DNA of 42,169 nucleotides, taken from the IMG/VR virus record IMGVR_UViG_3300037042_003858, positions 1 through 42,169 of that record. One strand, given 5' to 3'. This document shows, piece by piece, positions 17,001 to 39,382 of this stretch. The notes beneath the pieces are model-generated. The model did no database searches and was not told where the DNA came from. It saw nothing but the letters and a program-made list of their open reading frames with translations. Each line of letters begins with the position of its first letter. Within the stretch, counting starts at the first letter, position 1. Made by a program: the position numbers and the translations under genes. Origin of the DNA: a virus.

Positions 17001-17498
17001 CTACACCGTCCTCATGCCAGTCTTTACTCTCTGCGCAGGAGGCGATACCACAACCTCGCCGCGCATCGCCGCCTCTTGCCGCTGGAGATAGATTGCGTCG
17101 CGCTCCTCGGCTGAAAGGTTCTCAACCTTCACAGGCTGAACGGGGACACCCTTGACCAAATGAAGGACGCCAGCGTTGGCCTCCAACCACTCATCGAGTT
17201 TCTCTTTCCAGACAACCTTGACAAACCGGATGTTTTCGGTTGTCTTGATGTCTTCACCGTCCTTGCCCTTTTTGGTGACCTCCTCTGTCTTGAAAGTCAC
17301 TTCATCCGGCCAGCATTTCCGCAGTTCCGCGATCTCATTCTCCGGCAACTTGTCGGTGTCGATGAAGTCTGGTCCTTCGGCCCAGAGTGTGATGCCGGTA
17401 ATGTACCCAGCCGGACCCCGCAAGTCGCCGGGAAGTTTCCGTTCCGGGTATACCGTCACTGTTCCAAGCCGCCCTGATGCACAATACCATCGTGACAT
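17001..17498 (-). CDS. Late protein of unknown function downstream of capsid (165 aa)
   Basis: The ATG at 17498 shares its A with the stop of the homing endonuclease gene (TAATG), and the AGGAG site lies in the last codons of that gene; the earlier in-frame start at 17555 lacks such support. MSRWYCASGRLGTVTVYPERK is followed by a strand-rich segment and a charged region (TKKGKDGEDIKTTEN) and a helical C-terminus. No recognised domain. Before the endonuclease gene inserted, it would have followed the capsid gene directly, so a head-completion or decoration role is possible. Confidence 0.6.
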   Translation of the reverse strand: MSRWYCASGRLGTVTVYPERKLPGDLRGPAGYITGITLWAEGPDFIDTDKLPENEIAELRKCWPDEVTFKTEEVTKKGKDGEDIKTTENIRFVKVVWKEKLDEWLEANAGVLHLVKGVPVQPVKVENLSAEERDAIYLQRQEAAMRGEVVVSPPAQRVKTGMRTV

Positions 17499-18019
17499 TA
17501 CTTGCTCCTTTCCATCTGCCAACGTTTTTGCCGTGCAATTACTAACTGAGCACATGCTTTTGCACGGTGTTCTGGAGATTTAGATTTTCCTTTTGATGCC
17601 GCACTCATTTTTGCACGATGTTCCGGGGAAAGGGCTTTCCCTCGCAAAGAGAGAATCGCCCTGCCGCGATGTGATTTAGCAATCTTGGCACGATGTTCTG
17701 GAGACAACGGCCTACCAGATACTCCATCCCCCCCATCGGTGCCATTCACCAAATGGCAGAACTTCCGGTGGGTGGCAATCCAAAACCGCTCCCGATCCTG
17801 CCACCCCCCCCCCTGACCATATTCCAGCACGAGGTAAATAGGTTTGAATCCAAGATTGAGAAGTCCCCGAATCCAATTATATAGGTAGGTCTTCCCATTC
17901 GACGCATGCCATAGATGTTCTTTGTAGCGGACATCAGGACGAAATGTCACACCGACGTACCGCGCACGTAATGTGCGCGGGTCCGTCAGTGTATAGATTT
18001 CCCAAGAACGAGTACTCAT
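17498..18019 (-). CDS. GIY-YIG homing endonuclease with NUMOD3 repeats
   Basis: 173 aa from the ATG at 18019, ten bases after the capsid gene stop. Residues 7-9 EIY and 21-23 YVG are the GIY and YIG motifs. RYKEHL near 31-36 supplies the usual Arg, E77 in QDRERFW the metal-binding Glu, and LVNGTDGGDG (90-99) the conserved Asn/Gly turn. Three NUMOD3-type DNA-binding repeats follow (LSPEHRAKIAKSHRG near 105, LSPEHRAKMSAASKG near 127, KSPEHRAKA near 143). This is a free-standing homing endonuclease like T4 Seg proteins, which cut a related phage allele so the gene spreads. It separates capsid from the next late gene and looks inserted. It appears intact. Confidence 0.88.
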   Translation of the reverse strand: MSTRSWEIYTLTDPRTLRARYVGVTFRPDVRYKEHLWHASNGKTYLYNWIRGLLNLGFKPIYLVLEYGQGGGWQDRERFWIATHRKFCHLVNGTDGGDGVSGRPLSPEHRAKIAKSHRGRAILSLRGKALSPEHRAKMSAASKGKSKSPEHRAKACAQLVIARQKRWQMERSK

Positions 18020-18029
18020 GCCGTCACCA

Positions 18030-19277
18030 TTACGACGTGGTGATGAATTTCCCCACGCAGTGAGCATTCGGCTGCTTGAAAATTACTGCGCCCGTCTCGG
18101 TGATTTCGTCGATCCGGCGATGGTAACCGTCCTGCACCACGTTCTGCTTGACACGGGTATCCATGCCGTTGTATGGCTGCCAGGTCAGAAACCGGGTATC
18201 CACCGAGAAATACCGGTTGATACCACCAGCCACACGCGCCGACAAATGCTCCATCAACTTCAACTTGATGGTGCCAAACGGACTGTCCCACTCGTTCCAG
18301 GTCAAGCCGAGATTGGCTCCGGTTCCCATCTTGGCGTTGAACCGGACGCGCCCCATGTTCCAAAGGGATATGCCCGTCGCCAGCTCCTTGGGATAGAACA
18401 CCAGCACGTTTTCGATGTGCTGCGGCTCTTGTTCCGCGAAGAACATCATCTCGAAGTTCTTGGTCATCTCCGGCTCGGTCAGATCGGTGTCGGTCAGAAT
18501 GTGATCGGCATCAGCAACCGAGTCCATCCACGGGAAGAATCCCCAGCCGAATTGCACCTGGTTGGCCGCCGCCGCACCGTCGGGATCGAGGTCGGTGTAT
18601 GTGCCGAGTGTGGACAGAGCAACTGCACGGCCCTTCATGCCCCACAGCGCCTTGTACTCCCGCTGTTTGACGTGCTCGATGAAGAACAACTTGTTTTTCT
18701 GGTATGGGTAGTCCTTCGGCGTGAAGTACGAATCGGCATTCTCCGCTTCCTCGGAGAACTCAATGGATGTGCTGTGTGTGTGCAGGTAGTGTGTCCGCTG
18801 CACTTCGGTTACGGTCTTCGCACGCGGATATGGGCCGCCCTGCTCAATGTAGGCCGAGAGAATCATCAACTCGTCGCCCACTGCCCCAGCCGTGGATGTG
18901 CCCGAATCGACGTTCGCCCATACAGTCCAGGTGTCAGTAGAAAGCGAAACACACATGTGACGGCCACCGCCGGCTGTCTTGTTGTAGATGATGTCGCGGC
19001 TGGCGGCATACTGTCCCGTGCCAGACGCGAAAACAATCGAAGTCGCGCCTGCGGCATACGCCGTGGCCACCGTGGTCCAGTTCTTCAACAGCAAGTCCTC
19101 GCCGACTTTCGGCTGGAGCGTGCCGATGGATTTGCTTTTCTTGAGTTTGGCAACGAACGAGAACCCCATCGCACTGCCCGTGATGACCGCCAGCGCCTTA
19201 TCCACAAATAGAGTCGGGATAAGTGCCGACTGTGCGCCGTGAGTGGTTCGCTGCCCCGTGGTTACTGTCTGTGACAT
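18030..19277 (-). CDS. Major capsid protein
   Basis: 415 aa, no signal peptide, directly downstream of the scaffold-like gene with a strong GGGGGAAG site before the ATG. A small insertion-like domain lies at about 58-95 (VGEDLLLKNWTTVATAYAAG, then SIVFASGTGQ). EEAENADSYF and a long central helix region follow, and a beta-rich C-terminus ends VKQNVVQDGYHRRIDEITET. It resembles the SU10-type (DUF5309) HK97-fold capsid proteins as I remember them. Size, place between scaffold and connector genes, and absence of other candidates support the call. Confidence 0.82.
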   Translation of the reverse strand: MSQTVTTGQRTTHGAQSALIPTLFVDKALAVITGSAMGFSFVAKLKKSKSIGTLQPKVGEDLLLKNWTTVATAYAAGATSIVFASGTGQYAASRDIIYNKTAGGGRHMCVSLSTDTWTVWANVDSGTSTAGAVGDELMILSAYIEQGGPYPRAKTVTEVQRTHYLHTHSTSIEFSEEAENADSYFTPKDYPYQKNKLFFIEHVKQREYKALWGMKGRAVALSTLGTYTDLDPDGAAAANQVQFGWGFFPWMDSVADADHILTDTDLTEPEMTKNFEMMFFAEQEPQHIENVLVFYPKELATGISLWNMGRVRFNAKMGTGANLGLTWNEWDSPFGTIKLKLMEHLSARVAGGINRYFSVDTRFLTWQPYNGMDTRVKQNVVQDGYHRRIDEITETGAVIFKQPNAHCVGKFITTS

Positions 19278-26573: not shown

Positions 26574-26601
26574 TTTATACGCAACAGTTTGTGGAAGTCA
26601 A
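26574..26601 (-). promoter_or_regulatory. Sigma70-like promoter of the late operon
   Basis: On the minus strand TTGACT (26596-26601), a 16-base spacer and TATAAA (26574-26579). It lies 34 bases before terS and points at the whole structural operon. Confidence 0.65.
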
Positions 26602-26663
26602 GGGGGAAAGTGGTTCGAATGAGCCAATCGGCTGTTTATTTCGCATCGGGGTGCAGATTTTCC

Positions 26664-26692
26664 TTGACATTACCTATATGGTTGTCGATACT
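26664..26692 (+). promoter_or_regulatory. Sigma70-like promoter of the small plus-strand operon
   Basis: TTGACA (26664-26669), a 17-base spacer and GATACT (26687-26692). It is divergent from the late promoter, with about 60 bases between the two -35 boxes, and points at the 59-aa gene at 26742. Confidence 0.65.
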
Positions 26693-26741
26693 GGTATCGG
26701 ACGCCGGGAATGATCCTGGCGCAACAGAGAGGATCGGCAGA

Positions 26742-26921
26742 ATGAGACGAATCATCACACTGGGGCTGACGCTGGCGGTTGGTGCGGCTATGTGGTGGCT
26801 GTCATTCTCCTACAACATCGACGGTCACATTGATGCGAGGCAATTGGCGGGAGAGCTGGGCGGCACGGTCATCGAGATTGGATCGCTCGGTTTTCTGGTT
26901 GTTCCGTTTGTGGAGTTTTAA
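26742..26921 (+). CDS. Small membrane protein (59 aa)
   Basis: ATG at 26742 with GAGAGG upstream; first gene after the plus promoter. Residues 4-21 (IITLGLTLAVGAAMWWLSF) are a transmembrane or signal segment and the C-terminus (IEIGSLGFLVVPFVEF) is also hydrophobic. The frame is open further upstream through the promoter, which is not expected to be coding. No family recognised; early host-directed protein is a guess. Confidence 0.6.
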   Translation: MRRIITLGLTLAVGAAMWWLSFSYNIDGHIDARQLAGELGGTVIEIGSLGFLVVPFVEF

Positions 26922-26944
26922 CAGCACAGAAGGAGGATCGGCAA

Positions 26945-27253
26945 ATGAAACGAGAGTACACTGCGGGGGGTCTGATTGCTGCTTACCGTTGGGCAAGAGC
27001 CAATCCTGACGGTCAGATTCAGATTGACCGCTTTGAGAATCTAACGGGGGCAGAGTGGTTGGTGTGGTTTCGCCAATGTCTGCACCGGAAGGCTTCGAGG
27101 GGATTGGTACAGGTTGGGCGGAAATGGTCGTCAGATTGGTTCAATCAGGCACGACGGACGGCGCGCGAGGTCAATACTCCTCGGTTGGTTGTCCGTTGGA
27201 TTCCGTTTGAGTTTCGCAAGCAGCTGGCGCACAGACTGTTTACGGAAGATTAA
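26945..27253 (+). CDS. Early protein of unknown function (102 aa)
   Basis: ATG with a strong AGGAGG site (AGAAGGAGGATCGGCAA before it). The product is basic and aromatic (SLTGAEWLVWFRQC-like core, then RKWSSDWFNQARRTAREVNT) with helical character throughout, consistent with a small nucleic-acid or protein-binding factor. No recognised motif. Second gene of the plus operon. Confidence 0.6.
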   Translation: MKREYTAGGLIAAYRWARANPDGQIQIDRFENLTGAEWLVWFRQCLHRKASRGLVQVGRKWSSDWFNQARRTAREVNTPRLVVRWIPFEFRKQLAHRLFTED

Positions 27254-27286
27254 CGGGGCGCATAGCGCTCAGAAACGAGGGAGAGA

Positions 27287-27607
27287 ATGAGCAAGACACA
27301 GAAGCACACGCCGGGACCGCTAACAATCAAGTATGGCGACGGCTGGTGTACGATCAGACCTGACGACGGGCACGGCAAGATAGCGACCGTCCACATGCGC
27401 CGCAGCAAGCCAAACAACACCGAAGAGCTGGACGCCAACGCCCACCTATTCGCTGCCGCGCCGGACCTGTTGGCGGCGTCGGAGGTGGCATTCCAAAATC
27501 TGCAATTCCGGTCTGAGACAAAACAGAAGTGGACACTACGCGACCAGGCCGCGTTTGAGATTCTTGAGGCCGCAATCGCCAAGGCGACGGGAGGGGCAAC
27601 CCAATGA
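27287..27607 (+). CDS. Conserved early phage protein (HTPGP type), 106 aa
   Basis: Opens MSKTQKHTPGPLTIKYGDGW and has ELDANAHLFAAAPDLLAASE followed by a helical C-terminus. The HTPGP start and the 'ANAxLxAAAPDLL' block mark a very common small phage family found in early operons; its function is not established. Stop overlaps the next start as ATGA. Confidence 0.75.
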   Translation: MSKTQKHTPGPLTIKYGDGWCTIRPDDGHGKIATVHMRRSKPNNTEELDANAHLFAAAPDLLAASEVAFQNLQFRSETKQKWTLRDQAAFEILEAAIAKATGGATQ

Positions 27608-27816
27608 CTTGGGTAGAGACGATCCGGCAATTCCGGCGTGACCATCCGGGGCCGAAGGGCCGGGACATGGCGCAAGAGACGTTGTCGCGCTACTTGGGAG
27701 TATCGTCACAGTCAATCTCGAACTGGGAGCTGGGATACTCGGAAAGCGTGGGCGCGTTCCGAACAATGATCCTGGTGAAATTGGCGGCATATACGCCGGA
27801 AGCGAGGGAGATATGA
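27604..27816 (+). CDS. Cro/XRE-like HTH regulator (70 aa)
   Basis: TLSRYLGVSSQSISNWELG (residues about 25-43) is a helix-turn-helix of the Cro/XRE type, preceded by a basic N-terminal helix and followed by one more helix. The size fits a Cro-like repressor with no dimerisation extension. ATGA overlaps join it to both neighbours. It may act on the divergent promoters at 26574-26692, which is not shown. Confidence 0.7.
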   Translation: MTWVETIRQFRRDHPGPKGRDMAQETLSRYLGVSSQSISNWELGYSESVGAFRTMILVKLAAYTPEAREI

Positions 27817-28157
27817 GCACACAGACGAGCGAAGCGTTGAGTGGGCTGGCCAGCCGAATATTGATATTGTCGGTGGACTTTTTTGACTTGTCCAAGCCGG
27901 TCGGCATGATGCAGGGTATGGCCGTCAAGGAAATTCTCAAGAACGTGCACGGCAAGCTGTTACGTGCCGGCATGGTCGTAACCACACCCATCGACGTGGA
28001 CTACGAAACAGACGGTGAGGGTGGGTATCTGCTATATCTGGAAACGACTTACCCAAACTGCAAGCTACTGCAGTCGATTTGGCTGGACGATGGATGTGCG
28101 GTGGCGTGTGTCGCTCTGAACGATGGCACGGGCTGGCGGAAGATCGAAGCCCATTAG
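27813..28157 (+). CDS. Early protein of unknown function (114 aa)
   Basis: Last gene of the plus operon, starting in an ATGA overlap. Helical N-terminal half (LASRILILSVDFFDLSKPVG), then a strand-rich part (PIDVDYETDGEGGYLLYLET). The terminator at 28180-28215 lies 23 bases downstream. No family recognised. Confidence 0.55.
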   Translation: MSTQTSEALSGLASRILILSVDFFDLSKPVGMMQGMAVKEILKNVHGKLLRAGMVVTTPIDVDYETDGEGGYLLYLETTYPNCKLLQSIWLDDGCAVACVALNDGTGWRKIEAH

Positions 28158-28179
28158 CTGCCCGTACAGCGCGTTTCGT

Positions 28180-28215
28180 GCCGGGGGCGTCCAGTTGATG
28201 CCCCCGGCCCTTTTT
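28180..28215 (+). terminator. Rho-independent terminator of the plus operon
   Basis: GCCGGGGGC (28180-28188) pairs perfectly with GCCCCCGGC (28200-28208), followed by CCTTTTT. It closes the 26742-28157 operon just before the convergent minus operon ends at 28305. No T-run is present for the minus direction. Confidence 0.85.
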
Positions 28216-28304
28216 GGGGCCGTAGCGTCAAAAGACAGCCGTTTGCAGGCGTTTGGGGGCACGATCTCGGACCAGCCCGACTCCCAACACGGCGGAAATC
28301 GGAG

Positions 28305-28745
28305 TTATCCCGTCACGCTCGCTTCCCCGGCAAGGATCTGGTCGATCAACCGGGCGGCCTTTTCGGGTGGGGCGTGCATGAGGTCGCCGTAGTTGAGCGA
28401 CGTCTTGCGTTCGGGGCGCTTAGTTGGCCCGGCCTTAGCCTTGACGTTGGCGACCGCGTTCCCCCGCACGGTAGACCGGTTCTTGTCACAGTTCGCGCGG
28501 GTATCACGCAGCTGGGCGCAACGTGCGTGCAGTTCCTGGGTGGGTTTCGCGCCCCTGATTGGGTGGTGACACTCGATGCAGATGCGGCGTCTCTTCGCGT
28601 CCCGTTTGACTTGCCAGTAGTGATGGTACGTCCGGCGATAGATTTTCCAACACAGGGGACAGCGCAGCAGGGCGACATCGACGTTGAGCATCACGGTGCC
28701 ACAGTCGGCGCACGGGTGGTCGTCTCGCTTGTGCCGTCCTCTCAT
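28305..28745 (-). CDS. Zinc-ribbon protein at the end of the replication operon (146 aa)
   Basis: CADCG (12-16) and CPLC (29-32) form one Cys4 site and CIEC (56-59) a further Cys pair, inside a very basic, His-rich domain (RTYHHYWQVKRDAKRRR). A second basic part ends with LNYGDLMHAPPEKAARLIDQ. Zinc-binding and nucleic-acid contact are likely; the exact role is unknown. Start overlaps the previous gene's stop as ATGA. It lies downstream of the origin and initiator. Confidence 0.6.
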   Translation of the reverse strand: MRGRHKRDDHPCADCGTVMLNVDVALLRCPLCWKIYRRTYHHYWQVKRDAKRRRICIECHHPIRGAKPTQELHARCAQLRDTRANCDKNRSTVRGNAVANVKAKAGPTKRPERKTSLNYGDLMHAPPEKAARLIDQILAGEASVTG

Positions 28746-29380: not shown

Positions 29381-30131
29381 AGAATCCTCCGAAGTCGTGG
29401 GGGGGGGTGATGAACGCCGGGGATCCAGCGAAGTACCACGCGAGCTTTTGGGTGATTAGCGGTTCAGGGTGGTGTCGGCGAAGTTCGGCCAGGTTGACGA
29501 AGTGGGCCTTTTTTGGTGTTGGGGCGCACCCGTTTTCAGACCGGTAGAGTTCGGCAAACTTGTCCCAAGTCGAGTCCCGGCGCGGCGCACGTTTTTCGGC
29601 GTGCGCGCTTCTTTTGTTCTTTGTGGTTTCTAGGTGAGGTGATATAATGTGGGGCGGTGACGTTTCGTCACCGTTTTGGTGACGTTTCGTCACATAGGCG
29701 GTGACGTTTTGGCACATGTGACGTTTCGTCACATGTGACGTTTCGTCACCGTTTTGGTGACGTTTCGTCACATCGGGCGGTGACGTTTCGTCACCGATCC
29801 ACTGGTCAAAATGCTCATTGAAAGACAGTCTGATTTGTTGATCTTCGGTGCCAGACGATACATGGACCTGGTTGGCCGCAATCATGGCCCGAAGCTCCCG
29901 ACTGGCCGGTGCATGATCCAATCCGGTCAGCCGACATATTCGCGCCACCGGCATGGGATCGCGGGTCCAATTGCACAATTCGGGATCGTCGCCCTTGCGG
30001 TAGTGCGCCCACGAGTCGGAAATGATCGCAGCCGCAATTTGTAAGCGCCGCTTGGATAGACGCCCCTGGGCAATAATCCCCAGTAGCACGCGCTCAGTCT
30101 GAATGCTCGTCCAGCGTCGTTTCTCGCCCAC
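29208..30131 (-). CDS. Replication initiator, lambda-O-like, with the origin inside the gene
   Basis: 307 aa, GTG start preceded by GAGGG. Residues 1-90 form a winged-helix DNA-binding domain (LSKRRLQIAAAIISDSWAHY, then PVARICRLTGLDHAPASREL). Residues 113-158 are made of VTKRH and GDETS units that encode the iteron array at 29657-29794. A helical C-terminal part (WDKFAELYRSENGCAPTPKK, then SENNRKRNKP) would contact the loader. The layout of an initiator that binds iterons inside its own gene is that of lambda O. Naming it O-like rests on this layout; no sequence comparison was possible. Confidence 0.72.
   Translation of the reverse strand: MGEKRRWTSIQTERVLLGIIAQGRLSKRRLQIAAAIISDSWAHYRKGDDPELCNWTRDPMPVARICRLTGLDHAPASRELRAMIAANQVHVSSGTEDQQIRLSFNEHFDQWIGDETSPPDVTKRHQNGDETSHVTKRHMCQNVTAYVTKRHQNGDETSPPHIISPHLETTKNKRSAHAEKRAPRRDSTWDKFAELYRSENGCAPTPKKAHFVNLAELRRHHPEPLITQKLAWYFAGSPAFITPPHDFGGFCANFDRISENNRKRNKPESPVERLQRMARVADATRSLPAGGGVRPATERGMPESEAG
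29657..29794. repeat. Iteron array, probable replication origin
   Basis: Six perfect copies of GTGACGTTTCGTCAC start at 29657, 29679, 29718, 29735, 29757 and 29780; a degenerate seventh (GTGACGTTTTGGCAC) starts at 29701. Spacing is 22, 22, 17, 17, 22 and 23 bases. Each copy is itself a palindrome (GTGACG, TTT, CGTCAC). The flank at about 29600-29650 is richer in A and T and could be the unwinding element. Seven direct palindromic repeats inside the initiator gene indicate an iteron-type origin. Confidence 0.82.
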
Positions 30132-34299: not shown

Positions 34300-35130
34300 C
34301 TAGGTGGTTGGTTCGGACACGCCCATCTTCTCCCGGAGTCCCTTGGTGCCGCCGTCGGCCTCAGAGACTGGCGTGCTAATCGCGTCCTCAATCTCGCCAA
34401 AGTCCGCAAAGGCAAGTTCCCCCCCCTCGGACTTCTCTTCGATCCCGTGCGCCATTGCCATCTCGGTGCTCATCGGCATGTACGGTTCAAGTCGGTGGAT
34501 TGCCGTCTTCCGGGCCATCTGTGCGTAGTCCGTGACCCAGGGACCGGAATCGGGCGATTGAGATCGTTTCCTCGATGCATCGATCTCGGTCCTGGGAACC
34601 ACGCGAAACAATGGCCGGGTCGATCCTTTGAGGTACGCAATCGCGTATGAGGCCACGATGTTAGACGGGGCGCGATTTGGGGACGCCCCCTCTGGGATGT
34701 GCCGGATGAAAGCCGCGGACCCGTACTCGTACTCGAACTTGTCGTCTTTGTAGACCACATCCGCGTAGACTGATTCGAACATGCCAGATCGGTAGTTGAG
34801 GGCCAGCTTGCCCTTGTATCCAAGTTGGAACTGCGCTTCAAGTTTCCCGGTCTTCTTGTTGTTGCGCGGGATCATATACGCCTGACCCATCAGGCTGCCA
34901 GGCTCCAACCCGAGCTGGGAGAACGCCAGAGCACACAAGATCAAAGAGGCCGGATCGCACTCTGCCAGCTTGGGGTTCTTGCTGAATTCACCGACCACGA
35001 GCTTGACGACACGCTCGGCAGCCAGGTGTTTGGTCGCCACGCTTTTCAGGGCGGCCATGATTCGCTCGTTCGACAGGGCGGCGAGTGCGGCCTGCTTCCC
35101 GGTCTTGGCGACAGCGGTTGTTTCACTCAT
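34300..35130 (-). CDS. recT: RecT-family single-strand annealing protein
   Basis: 276 aa from the ATG at 35130, which overlaps the exonuclease stop and has GAGG before it. The core shows the RecT pattern: KNPKLAECDPASLILCALAF, SQLGLEPGSLMGQAYMIPRN, QFQLGYKGKLALNYRSG, then YAIAYLKGSTRPLFRVVPRT and a MARKTAIHRLEPYMPM helix. It anneals complementary single strands made by the partner exonuclease. Gene order exonuclease then recT, coupled, is the classical two-component recombination module. Confidence 0.92.
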   Translation of the reverse strand: MSETTAVAKTGKQAALAALSNERIMAALKSVATKHLAAERVVKLVVGEFSKNPKLAECDPASLILCALAFSQLGLEPGSLMGQAYMIPRNNKKTGKLEAQFQLGYKGKLALNYRSGMFESVYADVVYKDDKFEYEYGSAAFIRHIPEGASPNRAPSNIVASYAIAYLKGSTRPLFRVVPRTEIDASRKRSQSPDSGPWVTDYAQMARKTAIHRLEPYMPMSTEMAMAHGIEEKSEGGELAFADFGEIEDAISTPVSEADGGTKGLREKMGVSEPTT

Positions 35131-36076
35131 GGTTTTCCTCATTCAGCTTGACGGTGAACCGGCGCGACGGCGCCGATACTTCGGTATGCGCCTCGATCAG
35201 ATCGGCGGGCGCGTTCAGTTCTTCGGCGACAGCTTTCCAGTTGACGGTGCGGCGACCGGCGACAGAAGACCAGAGGACGCGGCCACCGGGAAACTCCAAT
35301 CCCTTGTCGGTGCCGATCCGTTCTTTCACCTGGTTAGCAAGTTCGTCTTCACGTTCCCCGATCCTGTTCAACTCTCGCCGGACGGCCGTATACTCGCTCA
35401 GAAGAACAAGCTCCGCCCCATCGGCCTGTCTCACGAATTGCCCCGCTTCCGGGTACAGGTGCTTGAGCAGACGGTCTGATGCGACCGTGGCGTCGAGCGG
35501 TGGCGGGACACGGGCAATGACGTGGTCCTGCCAGAAGACGCAGAGACGCCGCATGATTTCACGCTCAAGCGTCAGATCCCTTGTCAGTGCATACTCACGT
35601 TCTTTCTGACCGCCCACCAGCGCGTCGAGGAATTCAATCTCAAACCCACCACAGGCCATCTCATGGATGCACTGGACCAAGTAACGGTCAGGTGGGTTGT
35701 CGTCGGGCCAGTAACGCACCGCATTGGAGCCAACCGTCTTGACTTGGAGGAATCCCGGCTGCGCGCCATTGACGGGCTTGAGGTAGTAGTCCGGTGTGCA
35801 GAAGATGAAGTTCAGTTCCGGGTGCCAGACCATGTGGTACTCCGGTGGCGTTTCGATGGTGTACTCCGGGTGTCTTTCCGCAAAAGCCTGAGCGACGAAC
35901 GGCTCCAGCTTCCGTCCCCACTTCATCGCTTCCGTCTCGATCACGTCCGGCCCGATTCCGAGCTTGTCACTGTAGACGGCCACCGGCCCGCTGTAGGGAT
36001 TCAGGCCAAGGATTGCGGCCGCGTCACTCGCGCCGATCCCCTTGCGACGCTCAATCAACCATTCATCCCGCGTCAT
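35123..36076 (-). CDS. YqaJ-type phage exonuclease (RecT partner)
   Basis: 317 aa from the ATG at 36076, which overlaps the previous gene by 14 bases; the upstream open frame is antisense to that gene's content and not coding. GIGASDAAAILGL (13-25) is the YqaJ opening, KWGRKLEPFVAQAF (52-65) carries the conserved Glu, CTPDYYL (93-99) the metal-binding Asp and FLQVKTVG (109-116) the nuclease motif, with Gln where Glu is more common. It digests one strand from double-strand ends. Coupled to recT. Confidence 0.88.
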   Translation of the reverse strand: MTRDEWLIERRKGIGASDAAAILGLNPYSGPVAVYSDKLGIGPDVIETEAMKWGRKLEPFVAQAFAERHPEYTIETPPEYHMVWHPELNFIFCTPDYYLKPVNGAQPGFLQVKTVGSNAVRYWPDDNPPDRYLVQCIHEMACGGFEIEFLDALVGGQKEREYALTRDLTLEREIMRRLCVFWQDHVIARVPPPLDATVASDRLLKHLYPEAGQFVRQADGAELVLLSEYTAVRRELNRIGEREDELANQVKERIGTDKGLEFPGGRVLWSSVAGRRTVNWKAVAEELNAPADLIEAHTEVSAPSRRFTVKLNEENHE

Positions 36077-36578
36077 GGCCCACGACCCTTCTCGCCTCAT
36101 CCGCCGCGTCGCCGTCGGCGTCAGGCGGTTCGGCAGGAACGATGCGCGGCGCGATACGCTCTGCCAGCCACGCAAAAAGAGCTTCGGCGTCCATGAACAC
36201 TTCACCCGCCTGTTCTGGTGTCTCGTAATGCGAGAAATGATCGTCGTGCAGGTGTCGATAGTCAGCGCCGATTTCGACGCAACCGATTTCTTCGCTTTTG
36301 TAGCGCCGATGGTAATCTCGGAATGTGCAACCACAGTGCAGGGGCATGTTGCCAGTGCCCTGACCCAGATCGGCATCCAACGCTTTCGACAGCGCGGCGA
36401 AATGAGGGTGACGATCTGAAATGTAGGCATGAACCTGCCATCCATTAGAACCCCAAGAAAAGTCAAGCGGTCTCACGGGGAGCGGTCTCACGGGGAATCG
36501 CGTCACTTCGACCGTGAACGATCCGTCCGCGCTGTTCTTGCGCCATGTATCGACCTTGTTCCATCCGTCGGTAATCAT
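36063..36578 (-). CDS. Unknown phage protein (171 aa)
   Basis: ATG at 36578 overlaps the 85-aa gene stop as ATGA. The region MPLHCGCTFRDYHRRYKSEE, then GADYRHLHDDHFSHYETPEQ and VFMDAEALFAWLAER recalls a conserved family of uncharacterised phage proteins with a Cys/His-rich centre. Near residue 40 a repeated VRPLP comes from a 15-bp duplication (36466-36495). Function unknown. Confidence 0.6.
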   Translation of the reverse strand: MITDGWNKVDTWRKNSADGSFTVEVTRFPVRPLPVRPLDFSWGSNGWQVHAYISDRHPHFAALSKALDADLGQGTGNMPLHCGCTFRDYHRRYKSEEIGCVEIGADYRHLHDDHFSHYETPEQAGEVFMDAEALFAWLAERIAPRIVPAEPPDADGDAADEARRVVGHDAG

Positions 36579-37225: not shown

Positions 37226-37350
37226 GGCCGCCGCTCCCCAAGTTGCAACTTCACGCCTGCTTCGTGATGCTCGGCGCGCTTTGTCTCCAGCGCCTCGATC
37301 ATGTCCTGCTTCGCCTGAATCAGGTCTTCCATCTGCTGTGCCGTGGTCAT
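37222..37350 (-). CDS. Coiled-coil microprotein (42 aa)
   Basis: ATG at 37350 overlaps the stop of the 159-aa gene as ATGA. The product (MTTAQQMEDLIQAKQDMIEA, then LETKRAEHHEAGVKLQLGER) is one long charged helix. Stop overlaps the membrane microprotein start. Coupled at both ends; function unknown. Confidence 0.55.
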   Translation of the reverse strand: MTTAQQMEDLIQAKQDMIEALETKRAEHHEAGVKLQLGERRP

Positions 37351-37826
37351 GGCGTCTCCTTCGCAATTTTCTGCGCCGCACGGATTGATGCACAGTACAC
37401 CTTCCTAGCCGGGACAACCACGTCGGCGTACACCTTCCTAGCCTGGGCAACCGCGTCGTCCTTCACCTTCCTAGCCTGGACAACCGCCATAGCCTGGTCA
37501 ACCGCGTCGTCGAACACGTTCCACGCCGGGACAACCGCCCTAGCCTGGACAACCGCGTCGTCGAACACGTTCCACGCCGGGACAACCACATCGTCGTACA
37601 CCTTCATAGCCTGGACAACCGCGTCGTCGAACACGTTCCTAGCCGGGACAACCACGTCGTCGAAACCAACAGGGACATCGATCAGACCATGCGCTATAGC
37701 CCACAGCATCCACTCGGGACGATCACACTCAAGCCAGAATAAGTCGAACGTCGCGTATCGCGCCGCGCATTCGAGGGCCTCGGTACAGGCCCCGCCTTGT
37801 CGTGGTACATCTGTCCAATGACTCAT
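37347..37826 (-). CDS. Protein with seven 11-residue repeats (159 aa)
   Basis: Residues 1-55 form a small domain (FDLFWLECDRPEWMLWAIAH). Residues 56-144 are seven repeats of the pattern DDAVVQARKVY/F (11 residues), two of them enlarged to 17. The repeats are also clear in the DNA (33-base units, 37393-37661). Amphipathic 11-mers recall LEA-like or apolipoprotein-like helices. The C-terminus is a basic helix. Start overlaps the 177-aa gene as ATGA. Confidence 0.65.
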   Translation of the reverse strand: MSHWTDVPRQGGACTEALECAARYATFDLFWLECDRPEWMLWAIAHGLIDVPVGFDDVVVPARNVFDDAVVQAMKVYDDVVVPAWNVFDDAVVQARAVVPAWNVFDDAVDQAMAVVQARKVKDDAVAQARKVYADVVVPARKVYCASIRAAQKIAKETP

Positions 37827-38356
37827 GGCGTCCCCGCTGACTCTCCGAGCGGCAGTTGCTCCTGCATCTCGTGGGCGTCCATCTTGTCAACGCGGACAAC
37901 TTCGCCGGAGTCCGTTCGAGTGATGGTCTTCTTGCCATTCGCGGGAACATGGAACGCGACGACACATTCAAGGTTCCTCATCTCGTACCCCTTGTTCAGG
38001 GCAAGAGCGAGCGCGGACCCCTCAGACGATGCTTTCGTGATCCGGGCCTTGATCGCGGAATCCACATCGGCTTTCTCGGCTTCGAGTTGAGCGACCCGCT
38101 CAGTACATTGGGCGAGCTCCAGCCCCATCCGAAGCTTTTCCGCCTCGGTAAAGTCGTAGCGGAGATATTCTTTCGTCTTGTGGATGAGCGGAGCCACCGC
38201 TCCCTTTATCGTTTCGATCATGCCATCGACCACAGCATTGACCTCATCGAGACTGGCGCTGTGTTCGCCGATTGTGATCGTGGTTGTGGGTCCGGGCTCG
38301 CCTCTCGGCTTCCTGACCTCGTGCGGCTTTGCGTTCTTCGGTGCTGGAATCCTCAT
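37823..38356 (-). CDS. Unknown helical protein (177 aa)
   Basis: N-terminal basic and Pro-rich (MRIPAPKNAKPHEVRKPRGE), then ITIGEHSASLDEVNAVVDGM, a long coiled-coil-like helix (LRMGLELAQCTERVAQLEAE) and a strand-rich end (NLECVVAFHVPANGKKTITR, SGEVVRVDKM). Second gene of the early operon with ATGA coupling on both sides. Not recognised. Confidence 0.55.
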   Translation of the reverse strand: MRIPAPKNAKPHEVRKPRGEPGPTTTITIGEHSASLDEVNAVVDGMIETIKGAVAPLIHKTKEYLRYDFTEAEKLRMGLELAQCTERVAQLEAEKADVDSAIKARITKASSEGSALALALNKGYEMRNLECVVAFHVPANGKKTITRTDSGEVVRVDKMDAHEMQEQLPLGESAGTP

Positions 38357-38550
38357 GATGCCACCGCCTTCGGTTTCGCCGTCCGCGGCTTGCGCGTCGG
38401 CCAGACTTCGCGCAGAATCTTGGTGGCGGCCGTTTCGATCAGGGCGAGTTGCGAAAAACTAACTGGACGGTTGACATCGGCTCTCGCGTTCACCTCATCA
38501 CAGATCTGCGTTGCCACCGACTCCGGTGTGTATTTCGGTGTTCTACTCAT
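38353..38550 (-). CDS. First gene of the early operon (65 aa)
   Basis: Good GAGGA site before the ATG; a strong leader hairpin (38568-38610) lies just upstream. Helical middle (SFSQLALIETAATKILREVW) and a basic tail TRKPRTAKPKAVAS that could touch nucleic acid. No family recognised. Confidence 0.6.
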   Translation of the reverse strand: MSRTPKYTPESVATQICDEVNARADVNRPVSFSQLALIETAATKILREVWPTRKPRTAKPKAVAS

Positions 38551-38567
38551 TCGGTCCTCTTTTCATT

Positions 38568-38610
38568 CCCGGCGGTCAGTTCACAAGGGGTAGGTTCGCC
38601 GACCGCCGGG
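38568..38610. other. Leader hairpin before the early operon
   Basis: CCCGGCGGTC (38568-38577) pairs perfectly with GACCGCCGGG (38601-38610) around a 23-base loop. On the minus strand it ends eight bases before the AAGAGGA site of the 65-aa gene and has no T-run, so it is more likely a leader structure than a terminator. Confidence 0.6.
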
Positions 38611-38706
38611 TGACAGCACAATCAGTCAGTACGTCCTTGCGGGAGCTTGGCCGCCGCTGATCGGCACGGTTGGTTGATGACGTTGTTTCCGCTAGTTGAC
38701 AGGGGG

Positions 38707-38737
38707 GCCGCCCGATGAGTTGCGGACATCGGGCGGC
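38707..38737. other. 11-bp perfect hairpin between the RNA and the early operon
   Basis: GCCGCCCGATG (38707-38717) pairs with CATCGGGCGGC (38727-38737) around a nine-base loop. No T-run on either strand. With 38568-38610 it makes the leader unusually structured. Confidence 0.55.
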
Positions 38738-38751
38738 TGACTGCGTGGAGC

Positions 38752-38774
38752 AAAAGCCGCCCTCGCAAGGCGGC
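38752..38774 (-). terminator. Terminator after the structured RNA
   Basis: On the minus strand GCCGCC (38769-38774) pairs with GGCGGC (38756-38761), followed by TTTT. It lies nine bases after the RNA element's closing stem and before the early operon. Confidence 0.65.
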
Positions 38775-38782
38775 GAAGTCTT

Positions 38783-38950
38783 GTGCAGTGGTGCCGGATT
38801 TGAACCGGCTATTCGGTTTTGCGTTCATCTTTCGGGCTTTCGCCCTGGTGGATCGCTGCGCCTCTGGCATGTCCGACGTGCTCTCACCGGCAACGCTTAC
38901 GCCCCAGCAGATGACTCGCTCCTGCGTTTCGCACACGCGGACCACTGCAC
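38783..38950 (-). ncRNA. Predicted structured RNA with tRNA-like T arm (about 168 nt)
   Basis: GTGCAGTGGT (38941-38950) and ACCACTGCAC (38783-38792) on the minus strand form a perfect 10-bp closing stem. Directly against its 3' side is a T arm, GCCGG-TTCAAAT-CCGGC (38793-38809), with a perfect TTCRANY loop, as in tRNA and tmRNA. Inside are a GGGC-GAAA-GCCC hairpin (38834-38845) and a TGCC-AGA-GGC(G)CA hairpin (38857-38869). A terminator follows. It is too long for a tRNA and shows no tmRNA tag. Candidates are a HEARO/OMEGA-type RNA or an antitermination RNA; no IscB-like gene is present. Only the pairing is seen; the class is unknown. Confidence 0.6.
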
Positions 38951-39052
38951 GGAATTCTTTGGGCGCGGAGATCCCGGAGATCGACCGCACCCGTTCGGCC
39001 AACGTGGAGGAGGTGGTACACACGTGGCCTAAATTTCTATGTGGAAGATTGC

Positions 39053-39277
39053 TCACCACAAATCCTTCTCTGCTACTGACAGGCCCATCGAATGGAGACC
39101 CTTAAGAATTGCACGTTTGTCCTCAGCCGTTGCCGAGAATCCACGGGCAAACTGGTAGACCGGGACGTGGTTCTTTAGGCCCATCGCCATTGCCAGTTCC
39201 CGGTACGTCACCTGATGGGTTCGCAGCCATTCTTCCATGCGCGTCAGTGTTCTCTTTTGTCTTTTCACAGTCGGCAT
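39053..39277 (-). CDS. HTH protein, possible switch regulator (74 aa)
   Basis: ATG at 39277 is nine bases after AAAGGAG; two closer ATG codons precede it. Basic N-terminus (MPTVKRQKRTLTRMEEWLRT), then HQVTYRELAMAMGLKNHVPV as a helix-turn-helix and a further two helices (TAEDKRAILKGLHSMGLSVA). It lies between the divergent promoter region and the RNA element, the usual place of a phage repressor. Stop falls 102 bases before the RNA. Confidence 0.6.
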   Translation of the reverse strand: MPTVKRQKRTLTRMEEWLRTHQVTYRELAMAMGLKNHVPVYQFARGFSATAEDKRAILKGLHSMGLSVAEKDLW

Positions 39278-39308
39278 CCGCATCATCTCCTTTACCGTTT
39301 TCGGCAGC

Positions 39309-39336
39309 AAGATACAACACCGTTAGAACAGCGCAA
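39309..39336 (-). promoter_or_regulatory. Candidate promoter of the HTH gene, RNA and early operon
   Basis: On the minus strand TTGCGC (39331-39336), a 16-base spacer and TATCTT (39309-39314). Divergent from the plus promoter at 39440. It is the only promoter-like site found upstream of the RNA and the early genes. Confidence 0.4.
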
Positions 39337-39367: not shown

Positions 39368-39382
39368 GCACTAAAACAGTGC
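39368..39382. promoter_or_regulatory. Small palindrome between divergent promoters
   Basis: GCACT, AAAAC, AGTGC: 5-bp arms in the AT-rich stretch upstream of the HTH promoter. A possible operator for the HTH protein; no second copy was seen. Confidence 0.3.

Follow-up and report, generated by a model that had tools for sequence, protein, structure and literature searches.

What is encoded in a long noncoding gap of this virus, between a putative regulatory gene and the genes of early recombination? The window, which is the whole IMG/VR virus record of 42,169 bases, carries nearly all of its genes on the minus strand, and the record is possibly incomplete, as its ends are classed as linear. 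The gap (38551-39052, 502 bases) is the longest noncoding stretch within the minus-strand gene block, with the exception of 26585-28304, a stretch that contains a group of plus-strand genes. The preliminary description had placed a structured RNA in the gap and had named translation of a 145-codon frame across the segment as counting against it.

A noncoding gap with clustered inverted repeats

Using a codon usage model trained on the virus's own genes, we obtained a score of -0.10 for the 145-codon frame, compared with +0.17 to +0.27 for genes, and detected no coding signal in the remaining frames of the 502-nt gap. By codon usage, then, neither the gap nor the 145-codon frame codes for protein, which rules out the translated frame and contradicts the objection raised in the preliminary description. 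Inverted repeats of 10 bp are ordinary in number over the whole genome (15 observed, 11.5 expected), whereas the gap alone contains 4 of them, compared with 0.13 expected.

In an otherwise minus-strand genome, overlapping plus-strand genes (26945-28392) lie in a stretch of reversed GC skew. One of these encodes an HTH_3 regulator (27604-27816) and the preceding one (27287-27607) matches phrog_1273; the two are perhaps a toxin-antitoxin-like pair or a second regulatory operon.

Anatomy of the element

The features that we assigned to the gap, all on the minus strand, are as follows.

38783-38950, minus strand: 168-nt structured RNA with a closing stem, a hairpin after its 5' strand, a long central arm and a T arm (fold prediction)
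38941-38950, minus strand: closing ("acceptor-like") stem, 5' strand GUGCAGUGGU (sequence and pairing)
38825-38914, minus strand: central arm, closed by UCAUCU/AGAUGA at 38914-38909/38830-38825 (fold prediction)
38834-38845, minus strand: tetraloop hairpin GGGC-GAAA-GCCC, whose loop reads UUUC on the opposite strand (fold prediction)
38793-38809, minus strand: canonical T arm GCCGG-UUCAAAU-CCGGC, adjoining the closing stem without a gap (sequence, fold and shuffles)
38783-38792, minus strand: closing stem, 3' strand ACCACUGCAC (sequence and pairing)
38756-38774, minus strand: intrinsic-terminator-like hairpin GCCGCCUU-GCG-AGGGCGGC, followed by UUUU at 38755-38752 (sequence)
38707-38737, minus strand: perfect 11-bp hairpin (38737-38727/38717-38707) with a 9-nt loop and no U after it (pairing)
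38568-38610, minus strand: perfect 10-bp hairpin (38610-38601/38577-38568) with a 23-nt loop, shortly before the next gene's ribosome-binding site (pairing)

The structural claims of the preliminary description were borne out. The 168-nt element is closed by a perfect 10-bp stem, and its coordinates were right, being strictly 38783-38950. The T arm is stacked directly on the 3' strand of this stem with no unpaired base between them, the GAAA-capped hairpin is present at 38845-38834, and a terminator hairpin (38774-38756) lies nine bases past the stem, with a run of only four Ts. The further 11-bp and 10-bp hairpins, both perfect, lie before the first early gene. The loop GUGCGAA follows the 5' strand of the closing stem, and the sequence at the 3' end is ACCACUGCACAAG. 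A pseudoknot between UCCGC in the loop of the 11-bp hairpin and GCGGA at 38692-38688 is possible and within chance expectation.

Fold prediction gave pairing probabilities of 0.97 for the closing stem, 0.97 for the T arm and 0.92 for the central helix UCAUCU/AGAUGA, with only about 0.4 for a D-arm-like hairpin after the 5' strand. In topology the predicted fold is like a cloverleaf whose anticodon arm has been enlarged. Folding energy was -69.2 kcal/mol (z -3.2) for the minus strand compared with -65.4 kcal/mol (z -2.1) for the plus strand. Only on the minus strand do the GAAA loop, T loop and U run read correctly.

The pairing pattern and its stability in relation to chance

In none of 600 dinucleotide shuffles of the whole window did a T arm abut a stem of 10 bp or longer. 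The shuffled windows contained 445 T arms in total, with an abutting stem of 9 bp once and of 8 bp seven times. The combination of T arm and stem is beyond chance in this test, which was made post hoc on a feature already picked out. Nearly all T arms that abut a stem of at least 8 bp in 1.46 Mb of viral DNA from elsewhere had a tRNA-like span (56-111 nt); at long spans we observed three 8-bp matches (220, 335 and 404 nt) and none of 9-10 bp.

Overall folding stability of the element is only moderately unusual. For the exact 168 nt the folding energy had a z of -3.2 and one of 200 shuffles was as stable, while with flanks or in other registers z was -2.2 to -2.5. In a scan of the genome the element ranked 28th among 497 windows, with 27 others scoring equal or better. 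As the pairing pattern is more unusual than the stability, the claim of a structured RNA rests on the specific pairing pattern. On these grounds the structure looks real and the element unusual, as judged from the sequence.

The strongest predicted fold in the whole genome (z -9.8) is elsewhere, at 29657-29796, where seven copies of the palindrome GTGACGTTTCGTCAC, one of them imperfect, are spaced by 17-23 bases. In appearance this array suggests an iteron, operator or partition site.

Comparison with known RNA families

The preliminary description had proposed a comparison with Rfam and had suggested, as one reading, an orphan HEARO/OMEGA guide RNA. No family reached threshold in an Rfam scan of the element, a local scan at E up to 10 returned chance-level matches only, and direct tests of the HEARO, tmRNA and tRNA models at E = 10 were also negative. 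We therefore rejected the guide-RNA reading on the lack of any RF02033 match at E = 10; the element shares nothing with HEARO/OMEGA RNAs except being a structured RNA.

The element is also not a tRNA, with no RF00005 match at E = 10 and no ARAGORN call. Its T arm is an exact match to the tRNA consensus (UUCRANY loop) and is stacked on a long stem, but it has no D-loop GG, anticodon loop or 3' CCA, and the stem is of 10 bp and not 7 bp. As in tmRNA, the T arm runs directly into an acceptor-like 3' strand, a long insert replaces the anticodon arm and a terminator follows the gene. In contrast to tmRNA, the element lacks CCA, is 168 nt long and has a 10-bp stem; there was no RF00023 match at E = 10, ARAGORN gave only noise even with relaxed settings, and no qualifying tag reading frame was present.

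Bacterial and phage Y RNAs (YrlA) are noncoding RNAs with a tRNA-mimicking domain and paired ends, features that the element shares. It is larger, however, has no match to the YrlA model (RF02553) at E = 10, and the record, which may be incomplete, contains no Ro/Rsr (TROVE) gene. Y RNAs, as a tRNA-mimicking class, have been reported in mycobacteriophages (PMC12282133). We also found no match to the C4 antisense RNA model (RF01695) at E = 10. The C4 RNA of P1/P7/P22, which is released from a longer transcript by RNase P, is a phage RNA to which the processing proposed below may be likened.

The put RNA of HK022 mediates factor-independent antitermination via the zinc-binding domain of the RNA polymerase beta' subunit. 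It is an RNA of ~70 nt that forms two stem-loops and a triplex (PMC9378689). Like put, the element would be a structured RNA of the early transcript ahead of the early genes, but its predicted fold is one closed multibranch domain, 168 nt long and bearing a T arm, and not two adjacent stem-loops of ~70 nt in all. Two further candidates were rejected: a weak plus-strand match to the chloroplast ycf2-5'UTR family (21.9 bits, gathering threshold 65.7), which is a mirror of the T arm and stem and not genuine membership of that family, and a T-box, for which the string GUGGUCCGCG is T-box-like and yet no T-box match was found in Rfam at E up to 10.

Genomic position of the element

The genes on either side of the element are the following.

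39053-39277, minus strand: Cro/repressor-fold protein, 74 aa from an ATG behind AAAGGAG, in an ORF extending to 39310 with a TTG start (codon score, AlphaFold2, Foldseek)
38353-38550, minus strand: first early-operon gene after the element, 65 aa (codon score 0.191)
34300-36466, minus strand: early recombination genes, YqaJ exonuclease (35123-36466) and RecT (34300-35142) (profile matches)

The upstream ORF (39053-39310) has a gene-like codon score of 0.178, and searches of Pfam and PHROGs yielded no valuable match for its 74-aa protein. A single-sequence AlphaFold2 model (pLDDT 80) was matched by Foldseek to C.AhdI, a lambda-repressor-like protein and 434 Cro with probabilities of 0.89-0.99 and TM-scores of 0.54-0.67, at weak E-values, none of which was below 0.15. 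The protein is thus predicted to have a five-helix lambda-repressor/Cro fold. Upstream of its gene, the dyad GCACT-AAAAC-AGTGC (39368-39382) is a possible operator. Farther downstream of the element, YqaJ and RecT are preceded by a protein of 177 aa whose GapR match is borderline. The location proposed in the preliminary description, a structured noncoding region in early-gene orientation between a repressor-like gene and an early operon, was accordingly upheld, without the guide-RNA interpretation attached to it.

In lambda, nutR/tR1 sits in the pR operon between a cro-type gene and the early genes. The order observed here (Cro-like gene, structured RNA, terminator, early genes) parallels that operon and the arrangement in HK022, where putR is about 270 nt from PR (PMC9378689). 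We found no promoter-like site next to the element and no sigma-70-like promoter between the terminator and the early genes, with a model that may not fit the promoters of the host.

Elsewhere on the minus strand, the gene at 17498-18067, which overlaps the end of a capsid-like gene, probably encodes a homing endonuclease, as its protein has a NUMOD3 motif and weakly matches GIY-YIG, and the gene at 37347-37826 encodes a protein with a repeated motif like VVPAWNVFDDAVVQA.

Search for related elements

The element is known from this one genome, with no homologue in the collections searched. Nor did these contain close relatives of the structural and regulatory proteins that we tried: searches with the Gam/GapR-like, portal-like, capsid and Cro-like proteins gave no close relatives, and a terminase search gave only distant phage hits and none in genomes. 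DNA pattern searches returned 22 chance hits or none, and blastn against phages and plasmids found no homologue, the closest hit (E = 0.2) being a T arm of haloviruses that lies shortly before their integrase gene and looks like a tRNA-derived attP. We also examined 80 RecT-bearing viral loci, all with RecT and often with YqaJ; beyond that module, these had at most one or two weak matches with this virus, and an orphan T-arm element of this size was present in none of the 80.

In one halovirus, HSTV-2 (KC117376.1), positions 1490-1550 of the segment examined contain an intergenic T arm, a hairpin and a T run directly before a XerCD integrase gene. This T arm is probably an unannotated tRNA attachment site.

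A candidate tRNA-mimicking RNA and competing explanations

From this single genome, we tentatively propose that the element is a tRNA-mimicking RNA that derives from the transcript of the Cro-like gene, is trimmed by RNase P and ends at the terminator, a reading that we hold to be a serious possibility short of probable. The element would mimic the acceptor/T-arm half of a tRNA, and its position and strand suggest that it is co-transcribed with the Cro-like gene; its 3' end would be set by the intrinsic terminator nine bases past the closing stem. The 10-bp stem and the 5-bp T stem could form a 15-bp coaxial stack capped by a canonical T loop. If RNase P and other tRNA-elbow-binding factors recognise this stack, the RNA would be cut free near 38948/38947 and then stabilised as a discrete small RNA, in which the long central arm may carry the specific function. 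This reading is supported by a T arm that has an exact UUCRANY loop and a GC stem of 5 bp and directly adjoins a perfect 10-bp stem, by motifs that read on the minus strand only, noncoding status, a terminator after the element and the precedent of phage Y RNAs (PMC12282133). It is weakened by the absence of a promoter-like site, CCA, D-loop GG and a match to the tRNA model, the lack of homologues in the collections searched, the 10-bp length of the stem and the pairing probability near 40% of the D-arm-like hairpin. T loops occur too in RNAs that do not mimic tRNA, which also counts against it.

Could the segment instead be an ordinary structured 3' UTR and terminator of the Cro-like gene, protecting or ending its message, with an incidental T arm? 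We consider this unlikely. The terminator and the additional hairpins suit the end of a transcript, the stability is unexceptional for the genome (rank 28/497) and 10-bp inverted repeats taken alone are near chance in the window, but no exact T arm directly next to a 10-bp stem arose in 600 shuffled genomes, and a terminator does not need a 168-nt domain. It is unlikely, too, that the element acts in cis in the manner of put, nut or an attenuator, with the nascent RNA folding behind the polymerase and controlling read-through of the terminator into the early operon. The site, which lies between a Cro-fold gene and an early operon of RecE/RecT type and is followed at once by a terminator, is like that of nutR/tR1 and putR (PMC9378689), and no sigma-70-like promoter was found past the terminator; these missing promoters prove little, however, as those of the host are possibly of a different type. 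The put architecture (~70 nt, two stem-loops) is absent, only eight bases separate the end of the element from the terminator stem, and antitermination leaves the T arm unexplained. Moreover, a simple attenuator switch is not apparent, as the element and the terminator have no pairing strand in common.

The remaining explanations fit less well. In haloviruses such as HSTV-2, a closely similar T arm immediately precedes a XerCD-type integrase, which indicates that a T-arm sequence can enter a phage via attP and leaves the closing stem unexplained. A captured 3' end of a host tRNA serving as attP is nevertheless improbable for this element: the record has no integrase or resolvase, a search of the genomes of 84,980 species, of which the host need not be one, did not find the 23-base 3' end CGGTTCRANTCCGGCACCACTGC, an A and not the usual pyrimidine 48 precedes the T stem, and the 10-bp partner strand 148 nt away is unaccounted for. 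Clustered perfect dyads in a long noncoding gap could also mark a site acting at the DNA level (a replication origin, a packaging site or protein-binding dyads), with RNA folding as a by-product. We regard this as likewise improbable, with the closing arms 148 nt apart, the GAAA, T-loop and U-run motifs strand-specific, and the palindromic array at 29657-29796 a better candidate for a DNA site.

Going beyond the tRNA-mimicking RNA itself, it is distinctly unlikely, though conceivable, that the element represents a novel class of regulatory RNA in phages, with an acceptor/T-arm mimic at the nut/tR1 position behind a Cro-like gene linking early transcription to a tRNA-handling host factor such as RNase P or an elbow-binding protein. 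If the RNA is not made, the segment would be an unusual but inert untranslated region. If it is made, none of the curated RNA families tested would include this tRNA mimic, which would come from a virus without close relatives in the collections searched and sit where temperate phages decide on continuing early transcription. The question whether phages employ tRNA-type structures to attract host tRNA enzymes, for processing early RNA or controlling it, could then be put to a direct test.
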